Assembly (NCBI GenBank): GCA_002733155.1
Contig: NVUO01000008.1
Location: 62,962 to 77,599, forward strand
Source of the DNA: Sulfurimonas sp.
GTDB taxonomy: Bacteria; Campylobacterota; Campylobacteria; Campylobacterales; Sulfurimonadaceae
Direction: 5' to 3'
Length of the DNA stretch: 14,638 bases
Shown: positions 4,933 through 10,144 of the stretch, one piece after another
Position numbering within the stretch: the stretch's first letter is position 1
How the letters are laid out: each line of letters starts with the position of its first letter
Notes under the pieces: generated by a model
Seen by the model: only the letters and a program-made list of their open reading frames with translations
Databases searched by the model: none
What the model was told of the DNA's origin: nothing
Made by a program: the position numbers and the translations under genes

Positions 4933-5397
4933 CTAAAAGATAAACATAAGTAAATATACCCATATTCCCGTAAGTGAAATTGCGACTACACCTATAAAAG
5001 TTTTTAGACCTGATTTTTTATGTGTACCTGCCTTTAACTGTTTTTTGACTGTAAATATTGTTTTAGACCAATATATCAAAGTAGTTACTGAAATAATTAT
5101 ATGAAATATTAAAACAATAAAAGCATACTTATAAGAGACTGAACTATCCTCCATAAAAGCATTAAATCCACCAGCCATTCTTACGCCAATCTCAAAATAA
5201 ATTAATACTATCACTGAAAATGCAAATATAAATACCTGTACATAGGCATGAGCCTTATAATATTTATTTCTAGCTAAAGATATAGCTCCAGCTATAAGTA
5301 ATGGCAGTATAGCTACTATTAAAGTCACTACATCCATAAAAAATGGTGCACGTGTACCTAAGAAACCTGGAAGAAACATATAATCTAAATTATTCAT
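4933..5397 (-). CDS. DUF420 family integral membrane protein
   Basis: A 154-aa polytopic membrane protein with about four hydrophobic helices (around 21-42, 50-72, 90-110 and 130-153). Family signatures seen are PGFLGTRAPFFMDVV at 10-24, a conserved His50 with Gln54 in KAHAYVQ, the FEIGVR segment with Arg73, and His99 preceding the third helix end. These histidines are the conserved residues of DUF420 proteins (YozB-like). One member, CtaM of Staphylococcus aureus, is needed for haem-copper oxidase maturation; whether this protein does the same is unknown. The start codon overlaps the stop of the upstream dedA-like gene by 8 nt (ATGAATAA), so the two are coupled. After its stop comes the bcp repeat region. 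Confidence 0.8.
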   Translation of the reverse strand: MNNLDYMFLPGFLGTRAPFFMDVVTLIVAILPLLIAGAISLARNKYYKAHAYVQVFIFAFSVIVLIYFEIGVRMAGGFNAFMEDSSVSYKYAFIVLIFHIIISVTTLIYWSKTIFTVKKQLKAGTHKKSGLKTFIGVVAISLTGIWVYLLMFIF

Positions 5398-5995
5398 ATT
5401 TTATACCTTTTGTTTTGTAAGCATACCAACTTCCTAGTAAAACTAAAAGAAATAATACAGTTATAGTTATTTGCTTTAAGTAAAAATCAATTAATTCTTG
5501 ATTTTCACCAATAAAATATCCAAGTATAGTTAAAATAAAAGCCCATATTCCAGCACCCAATGCTGTATATGTAGAAAATACTATTAAATTCATTTTAGAT
5601 AATCCTGCTGGAACAGAAATTAATTGGCGAACACCAGGTATAAGCCTACCAATAAAGGTAGATATATGTCCATGTTTATCAAAAAAATTATCCATTTTCT
5701 TTAATGTCTCTTCTTTTATAAAAAAATATTTTCCATATCTTTTTAATATTTTTCGCCCTAATTTTAAAGCTAAATAATAATTAATCAAAGCTCCAATCAT
5801 AGATCCACTAAGACCAGATAACATAATCAAAGATATACTCATCTGCCCCTGTGAAGCCAAATAACCAGCTGGGATAAGGACTATCTCACTAGGAAATGGT
5901 ACAAACGAGCTTTCAATAGCCATAAGTAAAAATATACCAATATAGCCCCAGTCAAATATTAAATCCACTAAATCATGCGCTATTTCTTTAAGCAT
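5390..5995 (-). CDS. DedA family membrane protein
   Basis: Inner-membrane protein of the DedA/VTT superfamily. Some members recycle undecaprenyl phosphate or move phospholipids across the membrane (family knowledge); the substrate cannot be read from sequence. At 201 aa it has the usual size. Conserved features are the acidic residues Glu28 and Glu37 in IESSFVPFPSE and the signature FIGRLIPGVRQLISVPAGLSKM at about 114-135, which carries the essential arginines Arg117 and Arg123. The start is ATG at 5995, with GGAG 8 nt upstream. It overlaps the following DUF420 gene by 8 nt. The short upstream gap holds two GTATAC palindromes (6019-6024 and 6036-6041), but I cannot identify a convincing promoter. 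Confidence 0.93.
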   Translation of the reverse strand: MLKEIAHDLVDLIFDWGYIGIFLLMAIESSFVPFPSEIVLIPAGYLASQGQMSISLIMLSGLSGSMIGALINYYLALKLGRKILKRYGKYFFIKEETLKKMDNFFDKHGHISTFIGRLIPGVRQLISVPAGLSKMNLIVFSTYTALGAGIWAFILTILGYFIGENQELIDFYLKQITITVLFLLVLLGSWYAYKTKGIKYE

Positions 5996-6066: not shown

Positions 6067-6087
6067 CCTCTTAGTTTTTCTAAGAGG
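6067..6087. other. perfect 8-bp hairpin between the defence cassette and dedA
   Basis: CCTCTTAG, a TTTTT loop and CTAAGAGG. It lies 8 nt after the stop of the 53-aa ORF and 72 nt before the dedA start. Neither strand has a T-run following the stem, so it is not a standard intrinsic terminator, but it could protect or weakly end the upstream transcript. Confidence 0.5.
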
Positions 6088-6094
6088 AGAAAAC

Positions 6095-6256
6095 TTACAC
6101 ATTTAGTAGCTCTTTAAATTCACTGATAGAAATCATTCCTATTTTATTTTCCAATCTTTTGACATCAAACAGTCGTCCTTGAACAAGGAAGGCGTTACTT
6201 TTAAAATTATTAGCAATTTTCTTTTTAACTTCGTTCCACTCATCATATTGTTTCAT
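6095..6256 (-). pseudogene. 53-aa ORF, probable internally deleted PemK/MazF-like toxin remnant
   Basis: The ATG overlaps the mcrB stop by one base (TAATG), so the ORF would be translated by coupling. The N-terminus MKQYDEWNEVKKKI resembles, from memory, the leader helix of a subgroup of PemK/MazF-family toxins in related bacteria. The C-terminal part, LVQGRLFDVKRLENKIGMIS, resembles the last third of the same proteins. The roughly 70-residue core between them, containing the RNase fold, is missing while the frame is kept. I infer an in-frame internal deletion. It could instead be an intact small protein of its own; no search was possible. Confidence 0.45.
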
Positions 6257-7413
6257 TATTTGAGTATCTCTAAAACTTCATTTAATTTAACGTCATCTGA
6301 ATAAAAATACTCTTCAAGAAGTGGTTTTATTTTATACTCTTTTATAAATTCTAAGTCTTTGTCATTGTTTACTTTCATAAAATAACTATGACCTAACATA
6401 TAGTCTTCACCTAAATTATCTTTACTTCCAATATATTCATTTAATTTTTTCATTAAATCTCTAGCATTATCATCTTCAACCAATGCTAAATTTGGCTTCA
6501 TTTTTAAAAATGTAAATCTACGTCTTAAAGCTATATCAATAGTAGCAATAGATTTATCAGTTGAGTTCATAGTAGCGATTATGTAAAGATTTGATAGTAT
6601 CTTAAAACTTTCCTTTGAGTAAGGCAGAGTTACTTCGTATTTATCTCTTTTATCTTCTTCTATAAGCGTTATAAGTTCTCCAAAAATTTTAGATATATTT
6701 CCTCTGTTTATCTCGTCTATAACTATGTAGAAGTTTTTTGTCTCTTGTTTTAAGGCTTCATCAACAATATTTTTAAAAACACCATTTTTAAGTTTTATAT
6801 CTCCATTTTCACTTGGTCTATAACCCTCTATAAAATCTTCATAAGAATAACTTTGATGAAAGGTTACAAACTCAACTCTTTTCTCATTTTTTATCTTTTT
6901 AAATGTACCGCTATCTAGTTCAACTGCTTCATTAGATTTATTATCTGTAATAGTATTAAATATATCTTTTTCATTTTTTTCATTTTCTATCATAGAAATA
7001 ATTCTTTGATAATTATGAGTTTTTCCAACTCCTGGAGCACCGTATAGGATTATATTCGTATTTTTTGGATTATTTTCTTTATCCATCAATTCCAAAACAT
7101 TTGTATCATTAAGCTTATTGTATAAGAAATTATGATAATTCAATAGTGCTGAACTTGGTTCCATAGAACTTATACTTATATTCCATTCATGCAAGTCTCC
7201 ACCTTTTAAACATCTAGTTTTTAAATTACGTAAATATAAGAAATCTTCAATTAATAATAATGAAGCAGTATCTTCCCCAAGACTTACTAATTTTTTTGGT
7301 AAGTCTATATCTAGAATTCTAATAAATGTATTAATTCTATCATCTTGAAAAAAATTATCATGCGTATTTTTAGTTTGTTTCAAGTATTCTCTAAATTTTT
7401 CCTTATTATTCAT
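6256..7413 (-). CDS. mcrB: McrB-like AAA+ GTPase of a type IV restriction system
   Basis: Motor subunit of a McrBC-type modification-dependent restriction system. McrB oligomers bind modified DNA and use GTP to drive translocation by a complex with McrC. Of 385 aa, residues 1 to about 118 form a small N-terminal domain I do not recognise, presumably for DNA recognition. The AAA+ domain follows with Walker A GAPGVGKT (125-132), the McrB-typical TFHQSYSYEDFIEGYRP (184-200), Walker B VIDEINRGN (231-239), the MNST element (282-285, matching the McrB MNxxD signature) and the RRRF arginines at 297-300. It is shorter than many McrB proteins because the N-terminal part is small. It overlaps mcrC by 4 nt (ATGA) and is downstream of it, the reverse of the E. 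coli order. No methyltransferase is nearby. Confidence 0.88.
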   Translation of the reverse strand: MNNKEKFREYLKQTKNTHDNFFQDDRINTFIRILDIDLPKKLVSLGEDTASLLLIEDFLYLRNLKTRCLKGGDLHEWNISISSMEPSSALLNYHNFLYNKLNDTNVLELMDKENNPKNTNIILYGAPGVGKTHNYQRIISMIENEKNEKDIFNTITDNKSNEAVELDSGTFKKIKNEKRVEFVTFHQSYSYEDFIEGYRPSENGDIKLKNGVFKNIVDEALKQETKNFYIVIDEINRGNISKIFGELITLIEEDKRDKYEVTLPYSKESFKILSNLYIIATMNSTDKSIATIDIALRRRFTFLKMKPNLALVEDDNARDLMKKLNEYIGSKDNLGEDYMLGHSYFMKVNNDKDLEFIKEYKIKPLLEEYFYSDDVKLNEVLEILK

Positions 7414-8546
7414 TTCATTATCTCCATTCTATTCTTAATCTCAGCAACATATTCACTATACCCACCATCAAAATTCAAATCAACACTTCTCATTTTTAAT
7501 TTTATCATTTTATCATCTTTTCCTAGTTGTAAATCTTCTTTTATTTGAATCTGATGCTGTGGATATAAAAGCATAGTATTTTTAATTCCAAAATTTGTAC
7601 CATATACAAACATCTGGTATTTATCATCTCTTTTTAAATCTTTTTTATCTATTACACTTTTATATTTTGCATCTATAATCAAATTGTTACAAACTATATC
7701 TGGTATTAATTTTAAATTACCAAAGTTTCGTTCATATTGAAGTTTTGCACTAGAATCTATAGCCTTTTGAACATTACCTATAAATTTTTCAAAAAGTTCA
7801 TTCATATCAAATAAAAATGCAAAACTTTTTTTACCATTCTCAAATATAGGTATTGATTTTTGTAAAAGCAACAAGGCAAATTCAAAACTGTCTTTGAACC
7901 TAGTATTTAGTCTATTAAAGTTTATTTTTAAAGTATTTATATCAAAATCCATAGATTCAACTTCATCAAAAATCAGCTCACATTGTTTTAAAAGTTTTTT
8001 ATTTTTAGTGAATTTCATTAAAGTTTTGATAGCATATAAAAAGAACTGATTCAAGTCATTATTTTGTGAAAACTCATCATATTCACAATAAATTTTAGCC
8101 TTTGTAAAATTGTACTTTAGGTTTTCATTTATAAGATACTTTCCACGAAGCACTCTTAAATTGTCTTGCTCTGTTATGTATTCTTTGTAGATTCCGCGTT
8201 GAAGTTCATGAAACAAATTTTTAGCAAACATTTGTATAAAAATCTCTATAATATTATTTGATTTTTCATTCTTTGCATTTGCTATATCTTCATTATGAAC
8301 TTTTATATCATAGGAATACATCAACATATATATAAATATATTTAGATTTTCTTCATCATTATCTTTTGATATCTTAGGAAGTATATAAAAATCTTCTCCA
8401 TCATAATTAATAATTCCGCAATATTGTTTCGCTTTTAAATTTTCCCAATCTTTTTTAAAAAACATGTGAAGAGATGGAGTAGATTCAATATAATTTATAA
8501 GCTTGTTATCAACTGCACAATACTCATAAGTTATATTTTCAAGCAT
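7410..8546 (-). CDS. mcrC: McrC-like endonuclease subunit
   Basis: Nuclease partner of McrB, which stimulates its GTPase and cuts DNA. The 378-aa protein has an N-terminal region of the McrC type and a C-terminal PD-(D/E)xK nuclease fold. Catalytic candidates are Asp283 in LIPDIV, then Asp292 and Lys294 in IIDAKYK, followed by the family helix YQMFVYG at about 310-316. The upstream MNELFEKFIG segment (248-257) is also typical. All core residues look intact. It starts 2 nt after the relE stop, with a weak GAGAG upstream, and overlaps mcrB by 4 nt. Expression therefore probably depends on the toxin-antitoxin promoter. R.LlaJI-type McrC homologues of methylating systems are an alternative, but no methyltransferase is present here. 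Confidence 0.87.
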   Translation of the reverse strand: MLENITYEYCAVDNKLINYIESTPSLHMFFKKDWENLKAKQYCGIINYDGEDFYILPKISKDNDEENLNIFIYMLMYSYDIKVHNEDIANAKNEKSNNIIEIFIQMFAKNLFHELQRGIYKEYITEQDNLRVLRGKYLINENLKYNFTKAKIYCEYDEFSQNNDLNQFFLYAIKTLMKFTKNKKLLKQCELIFDEVESMDFDINTLKINFNRLNTRFKDSFEFALLLLQKSIPIFENGKKSFAFLFDMNELFEKFIGNVQKAIDSSAKLQYERNFGNLKLIPDIVCNNLIIDAKYKSVIDKKDLKRDDKYQMFVYGTNFGIKNTMLLYPQHQIQIKEDLQLGKDDKMIKLKMRSVDLNFDGGYSEYVAEIKNRMEIMK

Positions 8547-8548
8547 TA

Positions 8549-8836
8549 CTATTTTTCTCTCGCTTGAAGTAGTTTGTATATTTTAGAATTTTTTCTTTGT
8601 CCAACTGCTAAAACTATTATGAGTATTTCTTTGTCAAGAACTTTATAAGCAAGTCTATATCCAACTGTCCTTAACTTTATTTTATAAACATTATCGTAAG
8701 CACTTAACTTATCTTTAGATACTTTAGGATTCTCTAGCCTAGATTCTAGTTTCTTTTTAAATTGTTCCCTAAAACTACTATTTAATTTTTTAAATTCTTT
8801 AAGAGCCTTTGGATGAAATGTAAGTTTATAACTCAT
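8549..8836 (-). CDS. relE: RelE-family mRNA interferase toxin
   Basis: Ribosome-dependent mRNA-cleaving toxin of a type II toxin-antitoxin pair. It is 95 aa, exactly the length of E. coli RelE, and aligns without gaps in my reading. The functional residues of E. coli RelE (Lys52, Lys54, Arg61, Arg81 and Tyr87) are all present at the same positions, in VYKIKLRTVGYRL and VGQRKNSKIYKLL. The toxin should therefore be active and need its antitoxin. The ATG overlaps the antitoxin gene by 11 nt, and no strong ribosome binding site is visible, so translation is probably coupled. mcrC begins 2 nt after the stop. This places the toxin between its antitoxin and a restriction system in one transcript. 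Confidence 0.93.
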   Translation of the reverse strand: MSYKLTFHPKALKEFKKLNSSFREQFKKKLESRLENPKVSKDKLSAYDNVYKIKLRTVGYRLAYKVLDKEILIIVLAVGQRKNSKIYKLLQAREK

Positions 8837-9077
8837 CTAACTTTACTTCAACAGGAGTAAAGTCTTCATCTAATCTTTGTTTTATTTCTTGGCTTAACAT
8901 ATAATCATCCAACATTTCAACCATAGCTTCATAAGTCTTCGCTGGAATTAGGTAAGCATCTGCAACATTATGATTAAGTATAGCTATAACTTCATCTCCA
9001 GCATTTTTCAGAAGCTGTGTTGGGGATTTTTTTAACTCTGTAATACTTGCAGTGTAATTTGATAAAATCGCTTGCAT
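8826..9077 (-). CDS. relB: Phd/YefM-type antitoxin of the RelE toxin
   Basis: Labile antitoxin that should bind and neutralise the downstream RelE and repress its own operon. In the 83 aa, residues 1 to about 50 match the Phd/YefM DNA-binding fold (ITELKKSPTQLLKNAG, then VIAILNHNVADAYLIPA). The C-terminal tail ends in PVEVKLDEL, very close to the PVRVTLDEL end of E. coli RelB that wraps the toxin. The N-terminal domain is thus Phd-like and not the ribbon-helix-helix of classical RelB, as in StbD/StbE-type pairs. The start is ATG at 9077, with AAGG 7 nt upstream. A palindrome and TATAAT box 37-55 nt upstream form the likely autoregulated promoter. Confidence 0.9.
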   Translation of the reverse strand: MQAILSNYTASITELKKSPTQLLKNAGDEVIAILNHNVADAYLIPAKTYEAMVEMLDDYMLSQEIKQRLDEDFTPVEVKLDEL

Positions 9078-9096
9078 TTAAGTACCTTTTTAAGTA
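9077..9096. repeat. paired direct repeat upstream of the antitoxin gene
   Basis: TTTAAGTA occurs at 9077-9084 and again at 9089-9096 (12-nt spacing), flanking the antitoxin ribosome binding site. It could be an additional operator half-site pair or chance in AT-rich DNA. Confidence 0.3.
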
Positions 9097-9113
9097 TTTT
9101 ATTTAGTATTCAT

Positions 9114-9132
9114 ATTGTACTATACAATTATA
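9114..9132 (-). promoter_or_regulatory. candidate promoter and operator of the relBE-mcrCB cassette
   Basis: TATAAT on the minus strand (9132-9127) overlaps the murG stop codon. It is followed by the perfect dyad ATTGTA-CTA-TACAAT (9114-9128), which would cover the transcription start near 9120. A palindrome at the start site upstream of an antitoxin is the expected arrangement for autorepression by Phd-type proteins (family knowledge). Confidence 0.5.
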
Positions 9133-10144
9133 AAAATTTAGATATATCACTTATCATCTTTTTAGCTACATCTTTTTGTGAGTATTCCATTAAAGCCTTA
9201 CTTTTTTCTTCTAAATCTTCATTTAAAATTTCTAATAATTTATCTTTTAAGCCCTCACCCTCACGTTCACACCAAGATAAATTTTTATCTACTATGAATT
9301 TTGCATTAAAAAACTGATGATCAGCTGCTGCGTATGGATATGGTACATATAAAGCTGGACATCCATTAGCTGTTAGTTCCCAAAGTGTAGATGCACCAGC
9401 ACGACTTACAGCTAAATCAGCCCTAGTTATCAACTTATCTAAATCTTTAGTAAAGTGATATAATTCTACTTCAATTCCAAGTTTTTCATACTCGTTTTTC
9501 ACTCTATTATAATCACTCTCACCAGCTTGATGTATAACTTTTATACCTTTATCTATTAGTTTTTGAGCTACATCCAAGGCTAAATCATTTATAGCCTTAG
9601 CCCCAAAAGATCCACCTAAAAAAATGATAGTTTTTATATCTTTTCTAATTCTTTGAGTTAGAAAAAAGTTTTCTTTTACTGGGTATCCTTTTATCGGAGA
9701 AGAATCCTCATAAGCTGATACAAAACTCTTAGCAAATTGTTTTAAAAGTGAATTTAGTCTACCAATAACTGCATTTTGTTCATGTATAAAAAGAGCTATA
9801 TTCTTAGATATACTAGCAAATGAGGCTGGAGCTGCTGAAAAACCACCTACACTATACACAGCATCGATATTGTGTATTTTTAATATTTTTCTAGATTTAA
9901 AAAAAGCTAAAAAAACCTTAAACAATGCCTTTAGTTTTCCTAAACCTTTTTGGTTTACAACTCCTGTTGTATTTAAAAAATATACATGAGAAAATGAACT
10001 ATCATTTAAAAAATATTTTTTATCTTGTCCAGAACTTGAACCAATAAATATAACTTCATGACCATCATTTACAGCAGCTTCAACTAATGCTTCAGCTATC
10101 ATTAAATGACCACCAGTACCACCACCAGTTATACATAACTTCAT
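9128..10144 (-). CDS. murG: UDP-GlcNAc:undecaprenyl-PP-MurNAc-pentapeptide GlcNAc transferase
   Basis: Peripheral inner-membrane GT-B glycosyltransferase converting lipid I to lipid II, the last cytoplasmic step of peptidoglycan precursor synthesis. At 338 aa it is of normal size. Seen are the glycine loop ITGGGTGGH (5-13), SVGGFSAAP (98-106), HEQNAVIGRLN (121-131), GGSFGAKAIN (177-186) and the C-terminal donor-site stretch RAGASTLWELTANGCPALYV (248-267), continuing to DHQFFNA. The ATG overlaps the ftsW stop by one base (TAATG), a coupled arrangement that supplies lipid II precursor machinery beside the FtsW glycan polymerase. The antitoxin gene begins 50 nt downstream with no terminator between. 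Confidence 0.97.
   Translation of the reverse strand: MKLCITGGGTGGHLMIAEALVEAAVNDGHEVIFIGSSSGQDKKYFLNDSSFSHVYFLNTTGVVNQKGLGKLKALFKVFLAFFKSRKILKIHNIDAVYSVGGFSAAPASFASISKNIALFIHEQNAVIGRLNSLLKQFAKSFVSAYEDSSPIKGYPVKENFFLTQRIRKDIKTIIFLGGSFGAKAINDLALDVAQKLIDKGIKVIHQAGESDYNRVKNEYEKLGIEVELYHFTKDLDKLITRADLAVSRAGASTLWELTANGCPALYVPYPYAAADHQFFNAKFIVDKNLSWCEREGEGLKDKLLEILNEDLEEKSKALMEYSQKDVAKKMISDISKFL

Follow-up and report, generated by a model that had tools for sequence, protein, structure and literature searches.

When a toxin–antitoxin (TA) pair stands directly in front of a McrBC-type restriction cassette, do the two form one dedicated defense device, or do they share an operon as separate modules? 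This question is raised by a locus of Sulfurimonas sp. (assembly GCA_002733155.1, contig NVUO01000008.1) within a stretch of 14,638 nt, hereafter the window, whose positions serve as coordinates throughout; L- and G-numbers denote loci and genomes, respectively. In its part from 6095 to 9132, the list of open reading frames (ORFs) holds five minus-strand members in the order antitoxin, RelE, McrC, McrB and a 53-aa ORF, with an 11-nt overlap between antitoxin and RelE, a 2-nt gap between RelE and McrC, and overlaps of 4 and 1 nt at the McrC/McrB and McrB/53-aa ORF joints. All coordinates and joints agree with an initial annotation of this DNA, which read the string as a RelBE pair coupled to McrBC. 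That these genes adjoin is confirmed, and neighborhoods of this kind recur, yet a dedicated RelBE–McrBC device is not supported. Ordinary exchange and clustering of defense modules at an operon joint, each module working singly, probably explains the arrangement.

Toxin–antitoxin genes around mcrCB

For the RelE family of the window, 27 loci were found in 26 of the 228 family genomes, and neither mcrC nor mcrB was matched near any of the 26 other loci (tblastn, E 0.01; flanks of up to 1.5 kb per side, shorter at contig ends). The family is thus found near mcrC in this genome only, which for this pair is the very outcome that the initial annotation had named as refuting its reading. The antitoxin start was located at 23 of these 26 loci, with none in the available DNA of L262; L265 and L266 are weak matches to the window RelE (38–39%). 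At seven loci (L250–L254, L260, L261) the next gene begins −3 to 10 nt after relE, no less closely than mcrC does in the window, and in five of them it is the same glycosyltransferase-like gene, as judged by eye.

Seen from the restriction genes, the picture is one of changing neighbors. McrC homologues were found in 55 of 200 family genomes, the own genome counted. Thirty McrC rows represent full or partial window-type genes and were taken as loci, a few further ones being short fragments; 23 belong to a distant type, in which mcrB precedes mcrC at the 21 loci showing both. Together with 58 named loci, and minus 20 duplicates, this gave 69 distinct loci of the mcrC-first type: mcrB follows mcrC at 57/57 loci where it is visible, and 12 loci have no visible mcrB. 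One gene is split, its two pieces being L144 and L175. Neighbors were counted at the 65 loci with more than 400 nt of upstream DNA, with labels taken from Pfam scans of cluster representatives.

A TA gene lies within two genes of mcrCB at 26 of these 65 loci (upstream in 20, between the two genes in one and downstream in seven, with two loci counted twice and the toxin remnant of the window included). The weaker members of this count are three DUF4258/YgiT-type pairs, which are putative TA modules, an MNT fragment in L135, and L160, where RelE is 544 nt off. The kinds comprise RelE/ParE, MazF, MNT-HEPN, MqsRA, PIN and DUF4258-YgiT. Genes for YhcG, ORF6N, Bro-N or ATPase proteins occur near mcrCB at 15/65 loci, and 24/65 have none of the counted TA, Fic, Abi or accessory genes. 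A RelE/ParE gene within 100 nt upstream of mcrC was seen at five of the 65 loci, namely the window, L126, L128, L149 and L150 (gaps of 2, 8, 9, 85 and 77 nt). The toxins of L126 and L128 are near-identical (92%); apart from this pair, RelE toxins of different mcrCB loci are less than 42% alike. The McrC tree (62 rows, 22 of 59 inner branches being weak) shows the kinds of TA dispersed over it. Scattered kinds and dissimilar toxins therefore argue for repeated recruitment and exchange.

Independently of these counts, a YhcG-type (DUF1016) nuclease gene was noticed between mcrC and mcrB in L137, L139, L141 and L154.

The insertion sites murG-dedA and hypD-hypE

The five-gene block is an insertion between murG (9128..10144, minus strand; Glycosyltransferase 28 domains) and a dedA-type gene with a VTT domain (5390..5995, minus strand; PF09335, E 1.3e-23). 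dedA was matched in 134 of 135 genus genomes, and murG and dedA overlap by 4–8 nt at 23 of the 30 best dedA loci. The seven loci without overlap are the window, L183 with mcrCB, L184 with mcrB, L182 with a 751-nt gap holding an MNT-HEPN-type pair alone, L180/L206 with a C5-methylase-like DNA methylase gene and a partner gene, L205/L208 with a reverse transcriptase (the contents of these last three by eye), and L204/L207, with another neighbor and a contig end. Beyond these 30 loci, L129 (G146) shows the order murG-MNT-HEPN-mcrCB-dedA. The murG-dedA joint, one of several defense insertion sites in Sulfurimonas, houses a Phd-RelE module, a type IV cassette of mcrC and mcrB, and the debris of a MazF gene. 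In the scenario we propose, the modules would lie in one operon because such joints keep their insertions co-directional and tightly spaced. A tight TA-restriction operon could accordingly arise via module insertion and exchange, and close spacing by itself is poor evidence for a functional link.

The hypD-hypE joint of the same genus provided a control. Eight of its gaps hold window-type mcrCB, and 28 others exceed about 400 nt and could be paired on one contig; in these 28, both mcrC and mcrB were without a match (E 1e-3). Sixteen of the 28 contain no recognized defense gene beyond TA, Fic or HNH-type ORFs (that of L238 is an HNH protein). The remaining 12 carry other defense-type genes, recognized by PADLOC/Pfam in L215, L217, L219, L222, L224, L232 and L237 and by BLAST to such labeled gaps in L221, L225, L226, L234 and L239. 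Across L213–L240, the gaps take up PDC-S49, PDC-S20, Septu-like PDC-M62, PifA/KAP and Hhe candidates as well as TA and Fic modules. TA or Fic genes are present in six of the eight gaps with mcrCB (absent in G089 and G142) and in seven of the 12 with other defense genes (L219, L221, L224, L225, L232, L237, L239), and are about equally frequent in the two sets (Fisher p 0.64 on small numbers). Neither this comparison (6/8 vs 7/12) nor the other loci of the window RelE family (0/26) revealed one TA linked with mcrCB across genomes more than with other genes. Operon joints such as murG-dedA and hypD-hypE could be mined for candidate defense genes of Campylobacterota.

Individual modules were also found to move between partners. 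An antitoxin and RelE of the L126 type (87% and 83% identity), which in L126 precede mcrCB, stand before a Septu-like pair in L219; the RelE of L160 recurs in L221 (87%) and L239 (85%), and the MNT-HepT pair of L121 in L237 (83% and 97%). Fic, MNT-HEPN or Phd-YafQ pairs occur without mcrCB or other defense genes in L216, L238 and L228. These data bear on the idea of a guardian or addiction module, in which the TA stabilizes the mcrCB cassette, loss of the insertion would free RelE, and the kind of toxin is exchangeable. That mcrCB has repeatedly and independently gained neighbors of different TA kinds would suit this idea, as would the decayed second toxin gene of the window, which fits turnover of such modules. 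We nevertheless regard it as unlikely, since the same or similar modules stand alone or beside other defense or housekeeping genes and many mcrCB loci have no TA at all.

Several observations weigh against mere exchange of independent modules. Counting TA, Fic and Abi_2 genes together, 31/65 loci have one within two genes of mcrCB, and at some of them the TA adjoins mcrC very closely (2, 8 and 9 nt). Certain kinds recur with mcrCB at more than a single site (Fic at hypD and thioredoxin, DUF4258-YgiT at two sites), which fits co-travel. In L152, outside the 26-locus sample, mcrC is preceded at 0.94 kb by the end of a RelE gene whose product is 55% like that of the window, and an ArfB-like coding stretch (by eye) separates the two. 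The hypD-hypE control is small and covers one site in one genus. Moreover, the five RelE/ParE genes within 100 nt upstream of mcrC at 65 loci compare with 0.0075 expected at random, although this null ignores insertion hotspots, applies to 65 loci a density from 29 genomes (68.9 Mb; 159 ParE/RelE and 54 PemK genes) and counts the near-identical toxins of L126 and L128 separately. PemK genes touch mcrCB in three of these 29 genomes (P ~1e-4 under random placement). This enrichment speaks directly against chance neighbors without any special site preference, and pure chance was rejected on these grounds; the occurrence of the exact pair of families in this genome only would be compatible with it, yet we hold it to be very improbable.

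A wider proposal would take up the exchangeability itself. Here, the mcrC-first systems of Campylobacterota would time and again acquire unrelated TA, Fic or Abi modules (31/65 loci) because they form a plug-in slot for abortive infection, which other defense genes of these joints would share. The toxin type would be irrelevant, and any autoregulated TA promoter located upstream would give infection-induced McrBC expression together with growth arrest as a fallback. If true, this would be a general way of making restriction infection-inducible; we consider it rather improbable.

Two side observations concern the hyp region. The own genome assembly (2.3 Mb, 84% complete) contains four hypD and four hypE matches on contigs C1, C5 and C23, perhaps by duplication or mixed assembly. 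A 92-aa ORF in L220 has, by eye, a McrC-like start and a Fic-like end, without an mcrC match at E 1e-3, and is possibly the scar of a lost Fic-mcrCB insertion.

Identity and transcription of the string

The toxin gene (8549..8836, minus strand) matches PF05016 (E 1.9e-12) and aligns with E. coli RelE of structure entry 4v7k across 88 residues (E 1.3e-23). The alignment retains K52, K54, R61, R81 and Y87, which we take to be functionally important in E. coli RelE, just as the initial annotation had it; profile match and residues together place the protein in the RelE/ParE family. The label RelBE had to be revised for the partner (8826..9077, minus strand), which by Pfam and NCBIfam profiles is a Phd/YefM-type, YafN-like antitoxin (PF02604, E 1.6e-10; YafN model, E 2e-12, below the model cut-off). 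It is not a RelB of the ribbon-helix-helix (RHH) type; the RelB-like profile PF18506 reached E 0.0057, below cut-off, and among solved structures the antitoxin found nothing at E 1 or better. The pair thereby resembles E. coli RelBE, YafNO and related type II pairs in having a toxin near E. coli RelE and an upstream, overlapping antitoxin gene, and it differs from E. coli RelBE in its Phd/YefM-type antitoxin.

McrC (7410..8546, minus strand) belongs to PF10117 (E 1.1e-54) and matches the McrC of structure entry 6ut5 (E 2.8e-28), and the P-D and D-x-K residues of its PD-(D/E)xK nuclease motif are invariant across 17 aligned relatives. McrB (6256..7413, minus strand), the AAA+ GTPase-type subunit, matches PF07728 (E 5e-20) and McrB structures (E 4e-48 and weaker) and carries Walker A, a DEINRG Walker B and the NxxD motif; the importance of the McrB motifs is taken from the available part of PMC11090510. 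The catalytic motifs named at the outset are hence present in both subunits, and family, residues and the adjacency of mcrB and mcrC in one operon identify a type IV McrBC system, which would cut invading modified DNA. PADLOC left McrC unmatched and gave weak or unrelated matches for the remaining genes.

The string looks like a single transcription unit. A simple scan found no terminator-like site on the minus strand within it, in line with what had been stated before; promoter-like sites, said to be not evident, are listed several times within the string, though their number in the whole window (68) lies below the shuffle mean of 81. An 8-bp hairpin downstream (6067..6087, minus strand; whole-stretch z −0.81), missed by the simple scan, was rejected as a terminator, as it has no T run. 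The 50-nt gap between murG and the antitoxin gene (9078..9127, minus strand) is a candidate TA promoter/operator, with TACAAT at 9119–9114 and an inverted repeat ATTGTA/TACAAT at 9114–9128, the last base of which is the murG end. L242 and L244, the nearest relatives, have the TACAAT box at equal distance, and a consensus −35 is absent in all three. A −10-like box occurs in 22 of the 23 other copies whose antitoxin start was located, and 14 of the 23 combine a −10 of the TATAAT type with a −35 of the TTGA(C/T) type. The promoter-motif score of the window is matched by 0.64% of shuffles, a figure that is optimistic because the motif was picked after inspection.

A TA promoter upstream of the antitoxin gene is thus plausible but weakly supported, and read-through from murG into the string is equally possible. 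Since a promoter-like region is common to other TA copies upstream of the antitoxin, it is plausible that mcrCB is partly expressed from the TA promoter; in our scenario, its transcription would come from murG read-through plus, probably, the promoter in the 50-nt gap. Phd-RelE would be its own autoregulated TA, with each module functioning alone; a weak transcriptional coupling through the TA promoter may exist. That mcrCB does not need a TA promoter is indicated by loci where mcrC lies directly behind a housekeeping gene without a TA: at 31 loci with a co-directional upstream gene and without an upstream TA, Fic or Abi gene, ten have mcrC −8 to 11 nt from a gene of an uncounted kind, which in five (L061, L072, L079, L133, L138) is hypD, as recognized by eye.

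The initial annotation had gone further, proposing a dedicated two-step defense. In it, the McrBC level is set by transcription under antitoxin repression, and an infection that lowers the antitoxin would both boost McrBC and release RelE, adding abortive infection as a backup to restriction. Partial expression from the TA promoter is the part of this proposal that stays plausible. The continuous string with its 2-nt relE-mcrC gap, the promoter-like box and the 31/65 loci with TA, Fic or Abi genes would agree with it, as would the BrnT-like RelE toxins upstream of some CoCoNuTs, for which the available text of PMC11090510 proposes an echeloned defense. We still find a two-step device improbable for this locus: outside this genome the window TA family is never close to mcrC (0/26 other loci, flanks of up to 1.5 kb), TA kinds vary and 24/65 loci have no counted TA, Fic, Abi or accessory gene, and at the hyp site TA and Fic genes are equally frequent beside other defense genes. 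Exchange of independent modules at operon joints accommodates these data.

The toxin remnant and known systems

The 53-aa ORF (6095..6256, minus strand) has no Pfam match above cut-off, none to PF02452 and one to PF12213 at E 0.11, and does not contain a complete PemK domain. It was matched in 28 of 200 family genomes, the own genome counted; in the 27 others the best match mostly covers residues 10–52 and corresponds to the C-terminal part of ORFs of 93–180 aa, the two exceptions being G173 (residues 1–33) and G038 (frame interrupted by a stop). Aligned to four longer rows, which represent three distinct loci as L124 and L011 are the same, it retains the start and the C-terminal part and has lost about 80 middle residues. 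The full-length counterparts in L063 and L124 are PemK/MazF by Pfam, and in L063 the full PemK ORF overlaps the mcrB end by 11 nt, at the same place as in the window. Judged from these alignments, the ORF is a decayed PemK/MazF toxin gene, the second toxin gene of the string and a dead one, on the far side of mcrCB. The reading as a novel small partner of McrB was considered and rejected, as both ends match PemK/MazF. The 23-bp mcrB/remnant junction (~6245–6267) exactly matches two other places in the genome (L211, L212), one beside an IS110-like transposase gene; we judged this coincidental, admittedly a judgment call, because the same stretch encodes a start resembling full PemK ORFs elsewhere.

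With McrBC (E. coli McrB; 6ut5 to 6ut8) the locus shares neighboring McrC nuclease and McrB AAA+ genes in one operon with their motifs kept; it differs in that mcrC comes first, here and at 57/57 related loci with a visible mcrB, and in an McrB N-terminus unmatched by Pfam specificity domains. The available passages of PMC11090510 describe McrB as usually upstream of McrC, so that the order is reversed here, which is not a defining trait of McrBC. The same passages suggest a parallel to CoCoNuTs, some of which likewise have a gene for a RelE-fold toxin directly before their McrBC-type genes, and for which a staged defense is proposed; our string, by contrast, has no CnuH, TerY or CARF gene, NxxD instead of the NxD of CnuB, and a canonical RelE with its own antitoxin. 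The label CoCoNuT was rejected on the NxxD motif and the absence from the string of a coiled-coil tandem nuclease partner such as CnuH.

HEPN/MNT clusters offer a precedent for operon-like arrays that combine TA modules and restriction genes, and the available passages of PMC3710099 tie HEPN genes to restriction systems; here, mostly type II TA kinds accompany a type IV system and are swapped at joints of housekeeping operons. Exchange of defense genes at fixed sites likewise recalls the core defense hotspots of P. aeruginosa and E. coli in the parts available of PMC10250203 and PMC10121019, except that exchange here takes place at joints within operons (murG-dedA, hypD-hypE), often between overlapping genes. 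The matches listed in the literature searches did not show a paper addressing a link between TA genes and McrBC in Campylobacterota.

About 100 residues at the N-terminus of McrB have no convincing family, and the first 80 gave no Pfam match at E 1 or better, including any modified-base binding domain (ADAM/DUF3578, EVE). McrB specificity domains are described as varied in the available text of PMC7641849. By eye, McrB N-termini diverge widely among L061–L175 and McrC stays similar, as if specificity domains had been swapped. Finally, further ORFs were noticed at mcrB-first loci: in L095 (1–3073), mcrB and mcrC are separated by a small ORF that is RelE-like by eye and overlaps the start of mcrC, and HepT-like ORFs (by eye) stand directly upstream of mcrB in L093, L099, L101, L102 and L103, from another genus of the family.

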